Origin: a bacterium
GTDB lineage: Bacteria; Oederibacteriota; JAAXVQ01; JAUVAV01
DNA length: 64,000 nt
NCBI GenBank assembly: GCA_021108215.1
Contig: JAIORK010000055.1
Coordinates: 62,001 to 126,000, forward strand
Direction: 5' to 3'
Below are positions 16,628-19,985 of the stretch, piece by piece. Made by a program: the position numbers and the translations under genes. Every line of letters starts with the position of its first letter. Positions within the stretch are counted from its first letter, which is position 1. Below the pieces are notes generated by a model. That model saw only the letters and a program-made list of their open reading frames with translations, did not search any database and was not told the DNA's origin.

Positions 16628-17779
16628 TTACGAGAACCGTTTCGGTGCCTCTTGAATGACGGTTTCCAGTGGCATGACGCTGACTTGTTTATGAATCTTA
16701 TATCTTTGTTTTCCTGGATAAATAACCGTAATATGCTTCAACTCAAGCTCCTGTAGCGCATTTCTCATTGACGGGGTTAGGGTGGGTGCATCCATGTGTT
16801 TGCATTCTATGCCATAGCGGTTATTACCTTTAATAAACACCAAATCAATTTCCGCACCATTATGTGTCGCCCAAAAATAGGCCTCTCCCGGCTCCAGTAT
16901 ACCGATGACTTCCTCCAGCACATATCCTTCCCAGGATGCTCCGCAACGGGGATGATTAAAAATTTCCGATTCATTTTTTAAGCCAAGCAACGTATGCAGC
17001 AATCCGGAGTCACGGATATATATTTTAGGCGATTTAACCTGGCGTTTTTTGATATTCACCTGCCAGGGCTGTAATTGCCGGACCATCAGTACTCCGGTTA
17101 AAATATCCAGATAGCGACGGATCGTCGGTTCGCTGACCCCCAAAGAACCAGCCGGTCCTGCCGCATTCCATATCTGCCCATGTTGATGGGCCAACATTGT
17201 CCAAAAACGGCGCAAGGCAACCGCCGGAATATTTATCCCCTGTTGGTAAAGATCACGTTCCAGGAACATCTGAATAAAATTTTTACGCCAATAATAACTA
17301 TCGATTTTTTTTTTAGGCGTATAGGACAAAGGAAAACCGCCCCGATGCCATAGCCGGGAGACTTGGCTTATTCCCACCTCAGAAATCCCAAATCCCTTTA
17401 TTGAAATAATTTCCAGGCGGCCTGCCAGCGATTCGGAGGACTGGCGCAACAAATCAGGAGATGCACTTCCCAAAATAAGAAATTTTGCCGGCAGCGGTTT
17501 GCGATCCAAAAGAACCCGCAACACCGGGAATAACTCCGGCCGTCGTTGCACCTCATCGATCACCACAATGCCGCGCAATTGACCCAACGCCGTTTTGGGT
17601 TCGTTCAAACGCGCCAAGCTCTCCGGATCTTCAAGATCAAAGTAGTTGTGCGAATCACTTTTGACCAATTCGCATGCCAATGTGGTCTTGCCACACTGTC
17701 TTGGACCCAGCAGCGCAACCGCCCGGCTCCTTTTCAAAGCCGCTTTGATTGTTTTCAAATAACCGATTCGTGGAATCAT
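16628..17779 (-). CDS. AAA-type ATPase with DUF4143 C-terminal domain
   Basis: This 383-residue protein has Walker A GPRQCGKTT (25-33), Walker B IVVIDE (71-76), and the sensor-like ILGSASPDLL. The C-terminal half (from about 190) has the DUF4143 pattern: helical DNA-binding-like SEPTIRRYLDILTG and then a restriction-endonuclease-like core WATHNGAEIDLVFI with Asp and Lys. These ATPases are widespread, often mobile, and of uncertain role. It lies next to the RAYT element, at the start of the accessory region. Confidence 0.88.
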   Translation of the reverse strand: MIPRIGYLKTIKAALKRSRAVALLGPRQCGKTTLACELVKSDSHNYFDLEDPESLARLNEPKTALGQLRGIVVIDEVQRRPELFPVLRVLLDRKPLPAKFLILGSASPDLLRQSSESLAGRLEIISIKGFGISEVGISQVSRLWHRGGFPLSYTPKKKIDSYYWRKNFIQMFLERDLYQQGINIPAVALRRFWTMLAHQHGQIWNAAGPAGSLGVSEPTIRRYLDILTGVLMVRQLQPWQVNIKKRQVKSPKIYIRDSGLLHTLLGLKNESEIFNHPRCGASWEGYVLEEVIGILEPGEAYFWATHNGAEIDLVFIKGNNRYGIECKHMDAPTLTPSMRNALQELELKHITVIYPGKQRYKIHKQVSVMPLETVIQEAPKRFS

Positions 17780-17840
17780 ACAAATATACTACCATGATAT
17801 TCGAAATTATAACTATCTTTTTTCATGGTATGGGAGATAG

Positions 17841-17867
17841 GGGACGTTGATTAGTATATCAGTATAG
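17841..17867. repeat. Left 27-bp inverted repeat of the RAYT element
   Basis: GGGACGTTGATTAGTATATC followed by AGTATAG is the exact reverse complement of 18951-18977. The pair brackets the transposase gene at 17889-18899. The GGGACGTTG end is the REP-like part repeated again at 18985-19003 and 19878-19893. Confidence 0.92.
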
Positions 17868-17888
17868 TCATTTGATCATGCCGGCACC

Positions 17889-18899
17889 TCACGATCCCAA
17901 TAGATCACCAAGACAGTCTTCTCCCCCGCTTACCCTCCCTTTGGCGATAAGCTGACTGGCTGCCGATTGGTTGATACCCAGTCGGTTTCCGATTTCAGTC
18001 ACCTGCATATCCAATACATACCGGCAAAGATACGCTACCATGGCTCTGGCTTCTGCTCCGGCTTTGCCTTTGCATTTGAACTCTATGACTCGAGATTCGG
18101 CGCCAGTTCTTCGGATAACATACTCTACTATTTTTTTAAAATCCCAGCTTTCTTTTGCCAAACAGTTCTTTTGCACTTTACTTGTATCCAACTGCTTGAG
18201 TACCCCTTGCACAAAAAAACTTTCTCCCAAAATACGCTCATCGCCCGCCCATCGACCACCTGCTTTTTTATTTGCCTTGACGACTTTCCAGCCACCAGCA
18301 CTCCGGATAAGACCTCCGCCACAGAAGCGGTCTTCAGCATCTGTGTTCTCGAATTCGGATATAAATTGACGATACGCCGACCTGGCCTTCCCGATCTTTT
18401 CTCCAAAATAGGATAACGTTTCTTCTTCTGCGTACCAGGGATGGGATGTGTTTCCTACAAGCGCGGAATGTCCACACCAAGGATATGCATCCAATGCACT
18501 CAAGTTTTTCACTAAGCCTGCCTGCAGTGGATTTCTATGAATATATCGAATGAGTTGTTGAAAGTAATTTTCTTTCTGACAAATAATTGATTTATACCGA
18601 TTTTGAAACAAATGCCCCGCACGCTTATGCCGGTGGTTGAAATTCACAGCATAACCGGTTTGGAGACGATGCATAAAATTGTGTAATGGATATTTTGTTG
18701 GAGAAACCAATAAATGAAAGTGGTTGGGCATCAGAACCCAGGCGTAACAGATAATGCCGGTTTCATCAACCAAACCTGCCAGTCTTTTAAGAAACATCTT
18801 TTTATCGTGGCTGTCTTTGTACAATCGCCGGCGTTCGATGCCCCTGGCAATAATGTGATAGAGGACTCCTGGAATTTCAATCCGTGGTTGTCTTGGCAT
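17889..18899 (-). CDS. REP-associated tyrosine transposase (RAYT, Y1_Tnp)
   Basis: This 336-residue protein belongs to the IS200/IS605-like single-strand transposase superfamily. The HUH-type metal motif is in LMPNHFHLLVSP (His60, His62), and a candidate nucleophile Tyr119 is in LIRYIHRNPLQAGLV. The extra C-terminal part (from about 255) contains a helix-turn-helix, VTEIGNRLGINQSAASQLIAKG, as in the long RAYT subgroup. Perfect 27-bp inverted repeats flank it. The frame is intact, so it may be active on nearby REP-like sequences. Confidence 0.93.
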   Translation of the reverse strand: MPRQPRIEIPGVLYHIIARGIERRRLYKDSHDKKMFLKRLAGLVDETGIICYAWVLMPNHFHLLVSPTKYPLHNFMHRLQTGYAVNFNHRHKRAGHLFQNRYKSIICQKENYFQQLIRYIHRNPLQAGLVKNLSALDAYPWCGHSALVGNTSHPWYAEEETLSYFGEKIGKARSAYRQFISEFENTDAEDRFCGGGLIRSAGGWKVVKANKKAGGRWAGDERILGESFFVQGVLKQLDTSKVQKNCLAKESWDFKKIVEYVIRRTGAESRVIEFKCKGKAGAEARAMVAYLCRYVLDMQVTEIGNRLGINQSAASQLIAKGRVSGGEDCLGDLLGS

Positions 18900-18950
18900 A
18901 CTTTATTTGACTCACAAAGGGGACTTTTTCATGCACTTTTTTTTAATTTT

Positions 18951-18977
18951 CTATACTGATATACTAATCAACGTCCC
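18951..18977. repeat. Right 27-bp inverted repeat of the RAYT element
   Basis: CTATACTGATATACTAATCA followed by ACGTCCC pairs perfectly with 17841-17867. It runs directly into a short direct repeat, AATCAACGTCCCGGATCCC, present twice at 18966-18984 and 18985-19003. Confidence 0.92.
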
Positions 18978-19003
18978 GGATCCCAATCAACGTCCCGGAT
19001 CCC
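18966..19003 (+). repeat. Tandem REP-like units, AATCAACGTCCCGGATCCC x2
   Basis: Two adjacent 19-base copies, each containing the CCCGGATCCC hairpin core, follow the transposase end. A related ACAACGTCCCGGGTCCC unit lies at 19877-19893. RAYT enzymes recognise such GT-rich, imperfectly palindromic units, so these are probable substrates. Confidence 0.8.
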
Positions 19004-19133: not shown

Positions 19134-19835
19134 ATGAGGAAAATATTTGTTTTTATACCATTGTTTTGTCTTTTAATTATTGCAGGGTGTGCCAATTCAA
19201 AAACAAAAGAAACTCCTGTAGGCGGGAGCTATGATGAAAATGCAATGAAAAGCTTAGTAAATCCTCCTAAAAAAATCCCGCCTTTTCTTCGCAGCATGAT
19301 AAAAATAGCTGATAAAAAGGCCGAAAAGGAAATGATTATGGGGAGAGTATTGGCCTGGTCTCCCAAAATAGCCATTAGCTCAGGCATTCTGGAACTTTAC
19401 ATAGAAGAGGGTGCAGCCGCCTGCCTTGAGGAACGCATGATAAAAATTCTTAGAATTATAATATCCTATACAGTGCCCAGTCAGTTTGCTTTAGATATAA
19501 ATTCATGGAACTTTCAGGATTTTGGCATAACTGAAGAAGAAATAAAAGGACTTCGGGGCGTGAAAGAAATCGATAGTATTGCCAGTTTTACAGACAAAGA
19601 AAAAACGGCATTAAAATATGCATATCAACTTTCAAAAACGCCCATAGTGCTTAGCCAAAAACTTCTGGATGATTTAAGAAGCCTGTTTTCTGCGAGGGAA
19701 ATAGTTGCAATTGCAGCACTTACCGCCAAGGTAAATTATTGGGCACGACTAATGGAGGCGATGAGAATAAAGCCGGCAGGTTACACAGATGATCCGGTAC
19801 TTCATCTGGAAGAATACAAAACTTTCGTAAAATAA
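19134..19835 (+). CDS. Lipoprotein with AhpD/carboxymuconolactone decarboxylase-like fold
   Basis: This 233-residue protein has a lipoprotein signal (MRKIFVFIPLFCLLIIAGC, lipidated Cys19). The body is all-helical: ERMIKILRIIISYTVPSQFA, then FTDKEKTALKYAYQLSKTP and LFSAREIVAIAALTAKVNYW, a pattern of the AhpD-like family. In AhpD the first helix carries a CxxC peroxidatic pair; here that place reads VPSQFA with no Cys. A structural or binding role is therefore more likely than peroxidase activity. It is the first gene after the RAYT element, in A+T-rich DNA, with an AGGAGAG ribosome site. Confidence 0.65.
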   Translation: MRKIFVFIPLFCLLIIAGCANSKTKETPVGGSYDENAMKSLVNPPKKIPPFLRSMIKIADKKAEKEMIMGRVLAWSPKIAISSGILELYIEEGAAACLEERMIKILRIIISYTVPSQFALDINSWNFQDFGITEEEIKGLRGVKEIDSIASFTDKEKTALKYAYQLSKTPIVLSQKLLDDLRSLFSAREIVAIAALTAKVNYWARLMEAMRIKPAGYTDDPVLHLEEYKTFVK

Positions 19836-19876: not shown

Positions 19877-19893
19877 TCACAACGTCCCGGGTC
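19877..19893. repeat. Isolated REP-like unit
   Basis: ACAACGTCCCGGGTCCC, followed by a second CGGGTC, matches the ACGTCCCGG(A/G)TCCC units beside the RAYT gene about 0.9 kb away. It supports local dispersal of the unit. Confidence 0.65.
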
Positions 19894-19985
19894 CCGGGTC
19901 AAAGTAAAAAGCAGCATAATAACTAAAACATAATAAATAATCATCAATCCTCGTCAATTAATTATCGAATAACAATAAATTAAAT

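Follow-up and report, generated by a model that had tools for sequence, protein, structure and literature searches.

There is prior evidence of Y1 transposases flanked by long terminal inverted repeats (TIRs). Di Nocera et al. (2013) introduced the names TIRYT for such genes and TIRtron for the corresponding elements (PMC3733652). The available text of that paper gives the motif GGGGWSAS for the TIRs, reports self-complementary tracts in some of them, and notes that the repeats, like those found here, also occur dispersed as single units, pairs or groups. The same text, on which our comparison is based, describes neither tandem octamers nor a link between repeat and protein sequence, in contrast to the present analysis. 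A related group, TnpAREP subclass 2.1, is characterized in the available part of PMC6006769 by a Y1 core, no REP nearby and a C-terminal domain resembling Bac_DnaA_C, HTH_23 or HTH_28. Because the repeats were unlike DnaA boxes, the authors considered that this domain may have no part in recognizing the target, or may recognize a new one. The available text leaves open both this target and the way in which TIR-flanked Y1 transposases recognize their ends. Two other systems rely on hairpins. The ends of IS200/IS605 elements (IS608, ISDra2) are subterminal hairpins without TIRs (PMC6006769), and RAYTs recognize a hairpin tagged with GTAG (PMC8266576, in the text available).

We have analyzed an element located in a window of 64,000 nucleotides, by which we mean the whole stretch of DNA under study. 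It is an ordinary member of the described class TIRYT/TIRtron, subclass 2.1. As in TIRtrons, a RAYT-like Y1 transposase is found together with long TIRs and, apparently, a GGGG-type motif. Only the first six of the eight letters of GGGGWSAS fit the downstream end, GGGGACGT, and the upstream end reads CGGGACGT. As in subclass 2.1, the Y1 core is followed by a DnaA-like C-terminal domain and there is no REP nearby, but here the octamers described below are proposed as the target that had been left open. The catalytic fold is that of RAYT/REPtron enzymes; however, the ends have neither hairpin nor GTAG and start with GGGACG. The Y1 HUH chemistry is common to IS200/IS605 by homology and the folds match, but the type of end is different, with TIRs and no stable hairpin. 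The remark made in a first-pass annotation of this DNA that long TIRs are unusual for IS200-type enzymes is upheld. The interest lies in what the relatives reveal rather than in the window element alone. What appears to be new in the aligned sequences are the bipartite ends, a coupling of octamers to the helix-turn-helix (HTH) domain and a coupling of a tip-next triplet to the Y1 domain across relatives. A search of the accessible literature, by titles and the starts of abstracts, returned no account of tandem octamers or of their coupling to the HTH; in the same literature only two papers used the name TIRYT. This covariation offers a testable answer to the question of end recognition.

The element and its transposase

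The transposase gene is an intact ORF of 336 aa (17889..18899, minus strand) between two inverted repeats, 17841-17867 and 18951-18977, identical at 27 of 27 bp. At 94% identity they are longer, reaching 32 nt (17836-17867 and 18951-18982). The distances from repeat to ORF are 51 and 24 bp, with long TIRs standing in the place of REPs. The 20-bp core of the repeat is found at these two places only in the window (up to 3 mismatches), and 100 shuffles gave no match at all, so that chance can be ruled out. The perfect flanking repeats of the first-pass annotation are therefore real. Reading inward, the gene-downstream repeat lies on the plus strand (17841..17867) and the gene-upstream one on the minus strand (18951..18977). 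Each starts with the tip GGGACG (17841..17846, plus; mirror 18972-18977), near-invariant in relatives, and continues with TTG and two octamers with period-8 covariation, unit 1 ATTAGTAT (17850..17857, plus; mirror 18961-18968) and unit 2 ATCAGTAT (17858..17865, plus; mirror 18953-18960), before closing with AG.

The sequences outside the tips also have a structure. The downstream tip is adjoined by a purine-rich segment, GGGAGATAG (17832..17840, plus), which matches the outer consensus of 235 ends. Outside the upstream tip there is an array (18978..19003, minus) made of GGGATCC and one more partial tip, with a 19-bp unit repeated. Here the earlier annotation had seen tandem REP-like units beside the element and a third further off. 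They are present: two stand in tandem with a period of 19 bp (18966-18984 and 18985-19003), the first overlapping the tip of the inverted repeat, and the third is the isolated tip-like unit CAACGTCCCGGGTCCC, with one mismatch (19880..19895, plus). These REP-like units represent additional tips beyond the end. The further suggestion that the ends were paired REP sites had to be abandoned. Four stretches of the window ends, folded as DNA, were no more stable than their shuffles (z 0.10, -0.33, -0.44 and -0.55), values on which REP hairpins were rejected as the ends of the element, and the repeats consist of a tip and tandem direct repeats, as part of an element of the TIRYT/TIRtron class.

The protein gave 54.7 bits with Pfam Y1_Tnp (cut-off 23), in agreement with its initial description as an intact RAYT-like Y1 transposase. 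It reached 28.3 bits with Bac_DnaA_C, below the cut-off of 31.5, and 76.3 bits with NCBIfam REP_Tyr_transpos, missing the curated cut-off of 80; PHROGs had no match. A plasmid search retrieved 24 records, every one under 60% identity and a single one covering at least 80% of the query. Within the ORF (17889..18899, minus), the Y1/HUH domain occupies approximately residues 1-182 and is followed by a linker and by a DnaA-domain-IV-like HTH at residues 252-336 (17892..18146, minus). The HUH motif H60-F-H62 is encoded at 18714..18722 (minus), with Y112 and Y119 downstream in the same ORF, and H60, H62, Y112 and Y119 were invariant in 57 aligned proteins.

We built an AlphaFold model of the transposase from 57 sequences (mean pLDDT 86.5), and the fold matches place both halves of the protein. 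Residues 1-195 matched the E. coli-type RAYT 4er8 (Z 16.1, rmsd 2.6), and the C-terminal domain matched DnaA domain IV, both in 1j1v (residues 252-335, Z 12.4, rmsd 1.9, 84 aligned) and in 3pvp (residues 252-336, Z 12.5, rmsd 2.0). Profile matches of this domain to DnaA chains had E values of 6.5e-6 and weaker. DnaA reads 9-mers of the type TTWTNCACA at the origin, whereas the sites considered here are tandem 8-bp units of varying sequence at transposon ends; the likeness to DnaA is in the fold and in the DNA-contact positions. Profile alignment, fold match and the coupling reported below all point to the C-terminal HTH as the proposed duplex reader of the octamers. Residue 316, a Gln in the window element (codon 17952..17954, minus), lies in the recognition helix and follows the octamer core more closely than any other position.

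Copies in the genome and mobility of the element type

The first-pass annotation had suggested searching the genome for other copies of the 27-bp sequence and had considered an immobile relic in case there were none. Further copies exist. In the 3.56-Mb genome (67 contigs) we found two more exact 27-mers, C28:68691-68717 and C22:12140-12166, and the 20-bp core at 19 sites (up to 3 mismatches), with none for a reversed control pattern. Two of these sites are the ends of the window element, four form two inverted pairs on contig C28 and most others are single ends. The C28 pairs delimit MITE-like copies of 225 bp (C28:68493-68717) and 229 bp (C28:72674-72902), whose octamers are those of the window element. 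Since both retain the upstream end, the first gene codons and the downstream end, they are, to judge from this content, internal deletion derivatives of the element. Single ends were located at C22:7402, C22:12166, C34:70, C49:87897, C49:91478, C55:10680, C6:60921, C6:62612, C6:63775 and C8:59266; outside the tip, eight of these ten (C55:10680 included) had GATCC and the others GATTCC and GATCA. One more single end is found at C28:71686. As for full-length copies, there is no identical second one in the genome. The two paralogues present are 48% (the next-best identity) and 38% identical, and each has its own repeats.

A recent expansion was apparent in Desulfosarcina alkanivorans (G059), with four near-identical copies of 1094 bp within 40 kb, all with different flanks. 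They are found at 6.88-6.92 Mb (L174-L177), amid repeated surface-protein-like modules. For copies 0 and 2, uninserted relatives were found for each flank, but the left and right flanks were contiguous nowhere in the 120 kb examined, and for this reason no target duplication can be claimed. In the uninserted relatives the flanks of these two copies lie apart, as if insertion and rearrangement were coupled. Altogether, the relatives and the derivatives, rather than the copy in the window, provide the sequence grounds for saying that this type of element moves.

The four D. alkanivorans copies had 2, 2, 1 and 1 outer ten-base units upstream and 2, 3, 1 and 1 downstream, and comparison of four junctions with uninserted relatives of the flank showed that these outer units belong to the insertion, which takes in 7-19 nt past the tip. 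More generally, of 235 ends with outer sequence, 34 had GGGAC in the 30 nt beyond the tip, against 6/232, 7/226 and 7/220 in windows further out and 2/235 for the reverse complement. Our guess would be that the outer units multiply by slippage or by nicking at alternative tips.

Bipartite ends in relatives and their coupling to the protein

We have examined 103 related loci, 23 from earlier searches and 80 from a contig search that used an alignment; with a single protein as query, the contig search yielded 32 stretches with no relative among them. Flanks could be aligned for 83 loci, the other 20 having no intact ORF by motif search or lying at a contig edge. A repeat with a tip was detected in 77 of the 83, and six were without scored repeat or tip. 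Setting aside three repeats with another tip type (GGGTCAGG/GGGCCAGG) left 74, and dropping duplicates and two short proteins left 70 elements for the distance tests. The distant relatives L037, L038, L042 and L045 had another tip (GGGGTCAGGCC or GGGGCCAGGCC), in L038 and L042 also repeated outside the end.

The layout of the ends was the same in the 74 relatives: a constant tip GGGGACG, three more bases and two tandem 8-bp units. Taking the G of GGGACG as position 0, the triplet corresponds to positions 6-8 and the octamers to 9-16 and 17-24. Among 29 nonredundant repeats, tip positions 1-4 were conserved in 29 of 29 and positions 0 and 5 in 28. In the same set, the identity of positions 9-25 at a shift of 8 was 0.609, compared to 0.388 after permutation (sd 0.026, z 8.6); of the shifts between 3 and 14, 8 was the only one raised in this region. 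The null was obtained by permuting each column among sequences (500 permutations, maximum 0.467). As this procedure keeps the columns, the signal at 8 reflects covariation between the units, and on this statistical evidence the two octamers change together.

Both parts of the end could then be compared with both domains of the transposase. Over the 70 elements, octamer distance was correlated with the C-terminal HTH when Y1 was controlled (partial Mantel r 0.22, p 0.0005), and with Y1 only at 0.085 (p 0.065) when the C-terminal domain was controlled. For the triplet at 6-8 the values were 0.18 (p 0.0005) for Y1 with the C-terminal domain controlled and 0.075 (p 0.02) for the C-terminal domain with Y1 controlled. 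At the level of individual residues, the stretch 254-320 accounted for 15 of the top 20 octamer-coupled residue-base pairs, where its share of the columns predicts 5.2, and for 3 of the top 20 pairs for the tip-next triplet. Across these alignments, the octamer sequence is shown to track the C-terminal HTH of its own transposase, and the tip-next triplet to track the Y1 domain.

For the variable core of the octamer, residues 316 and 312 ranked first and second out of 252 columns; for whole octamers, residues 311, 316, 277 and 312 ranked 1, 3, 4 and 8 (hypergeometric p 6e-6). A profile alignment to E. coli DnaA equates 277 with R399, 311 with H434, 312 with T435 and 316 with H439, and all four are among the residues contacting the DnaA box in the available text of PMC7561715 and PMC5043019. 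The remaining counterparts of DnaA contacts came lower for the octamers, 301 (P423) at rank 187 and 310 (D433) at rank 70. At residue 316 the pairings were Arg-GC, Lys-AC and Leu-AG. In the discovery set Arg came with GC in 12 of 14 elements against 1 of 56 others, and Lys with AC in 13 of 17 against 10 of 53.

A held-out set was drawn from the phylum to which D. alkanivorans belongs, with 395 genomes sampled. A relative was present in 145 of them, and 90 loci were taken (30, and 60 fetched later). Losses were 32 of 90 and then 5 of 58 (no intact ORF or scored repeat), and the remaining 53 were reduced to 43 by removing those without a GGGA tip or with at least 85% identity, either among themselves or with the first set. 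The residue-to-core rule had been set down before these loci were fetched, but the motif windows (GC, AC, AG, CGG at positions 18-22) were fixed after the held-out table had been viewed. Period 8 was found again in the 43 (z 5.2), and period 9 also stood out (z 3.3), a signal that comes from elements of another HTH type: in the 26 outside the common HTH type, period 9 (z 2.9) exceeded 8 (z 1.5). This second subtype (L118, L228, L230, L233, L235, L239 and others) seems to use period-9 repeats.

Trained on the first set and applied to all 43, residue 316 ranked 1 of 258 for positions 11-13, 3 of 258 for both cores together and only 127 of 258 for the unit-2 core (positions 19-21), the last being the stretch in which the period-9 type is out of frame. 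Restricted to the 17 elements with the common HTH type, a selection made after viewing the held-out table, it came out on top for all core sets and 183rd for the triplet. Arg was found with GC in only 11 of 20 held-out elements versus 2 of 23, and Lys with AC in 9 of 10 versus 9 of 33; a rule pairing Met with AG held in 0 of 2. To account for ancestry, each motif was simulated along a tree built for 113 elements from either the Y1 domain or residues 1-240, and the observed R-GC, K-AC or L-AG association was reached in 0 of 1000 runs. In 28 mutual nearest-neighbour pairs, the relation between change at 316 and change in the core was weak (Fisher p 0.12, Mann-Whitney p 0.045); residue 316 ranked 47 of 207 in this test, and 8 of the 10 best columns were in the C-terminal domain.

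The repeats also carry a putative promoter element. A -35-like TTGAC adjoins the second octamer (repeat positions 15-34) in 65 of 130 upstream ends and in 3 of 126 downstream ends; the upstream end of the window element has no TTGAC box. Where the box is next to octamer 2, binding to the end should repress the gene, and autoregulation by end binding is likely.

Proposed mechanism, alternatives and neighbouring genes

We consider it probable, on the basis of sequence comparison, that the window element is a small autonomous TIRtron in which the HTH reads the octamers as duplex and the Y1 domain cuts the tip as a single strand. Each end is bipartite, opening with the near-constant tip GGG(G)ACG and three further bases, after which come two element-specific 8-bp units. 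The HTH, folded like DnaA domain IV, would bind both octamers of an end, with two monomers arranged head to tail, as duplex DNA by its homology to that domain. Bound there, it would place the Y1 domain at the tip, and the Y1 tyrosine would nick and join the tip as single-stranded DNA, as expected from HUH/Y1 homology, probably at a replication fork. In many relatives, where the -35 box of the transposase promoter lies directly next to the second octamer, binding of the upstream end would also silence this promoter. The internally deleted copies and single ends of the same genome may have been moved in trans by the same protein. Reading of the octamers by the HTH would account for the way in which the enzyme locates its ends, and also for the presence of inverted repeats here when other Y1 enzymes use hairpins. 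If true, it would add a second, duplex-reading handle to a single-strand transposase. A broader proposal, to which we give slightly better than even chances, is that in one entire class of HUH/Y1 transposons such a two-part address replaced hairpin recognition, the Y1 domain reading the tip and triplet as single strand and a captured DnaA-domain-IV module reading the tandem octamer as duplex, with a simple code at residue 316 (R:GC, K:AC, L:AG). In that case one could predict the ends of an element from its protein and, perhaps, re-address the enzyme by changing a few residues.

Other explanations have to be weighed against the bipartite reading of the ends. The one suggested in the first-pass annotation, REP sites paired around a RAYT gene that was domesticated, the repeats then serving the host and not the element, would fit a gene that is single-copy at this level of identity (48% and 38% for the next ones) and single repeat units strewn over the genome as REPs are. 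We regard it as highly improbable, given ends without a foldable palindrome and repeats that are tandem direct repeats behind a tip. Nor is domestication supported, given the two internally deleted derivatives and many single ends in the genome and the recent multi-copy relatives, such as the four copies in D. alkanivorans. Somewhat less remote, but still unlikely, is a dead relic, that is, an intact ORF in a copy that no longer moves. The lack of an identical second full copy and of a TTGAC-type promoter box at the upstream end would agree with this, but the HUH, tyrosine and HTH residues are intact, the 27-bp repeats are still identical and two more identical 27-mers are found in the genome.

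A different objection concerns the coupling itself. It might be the Y1 domain, acting on single strand, or a host protein that reads the octamers, with shared ancestry behind the association with the HTH. Related elements do have octamer and HTH in common, and residue 316 performed weakly in the nearest-neighbour test. However, on the same tree the octamers and the tip-next triplet have opposite domain preferences, none of the 1000 tree simulations reached the associations and the coupled residues coincide with the DNA-contact positions of DnaA. Shared ancestry is an improbable explanation, and reading of the octamers by the HTH is preferred.

The genes at both sides of the window element were also inspected. 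The right neighbour (19134-19835) codes for 233 aa with a lipoprotein-like start and had weak hits, far under the cut-offs, to YciW-related and peroxidase-related models; a search of the 8 nearest genomes returned no match for this gene, and no empty site was obtained with which to compare the insertion boundaries. To the left, the gene has orthologues in 6 of the 8 nearest genomes, and the left neighbour (16628-17779) is an AAA_14/DUF4143 ATPase (147.4 and 83.2 bits). A gene with a similar start (392 aa, ATPase-like by eye) adjoins the C39 paralogue in L002.
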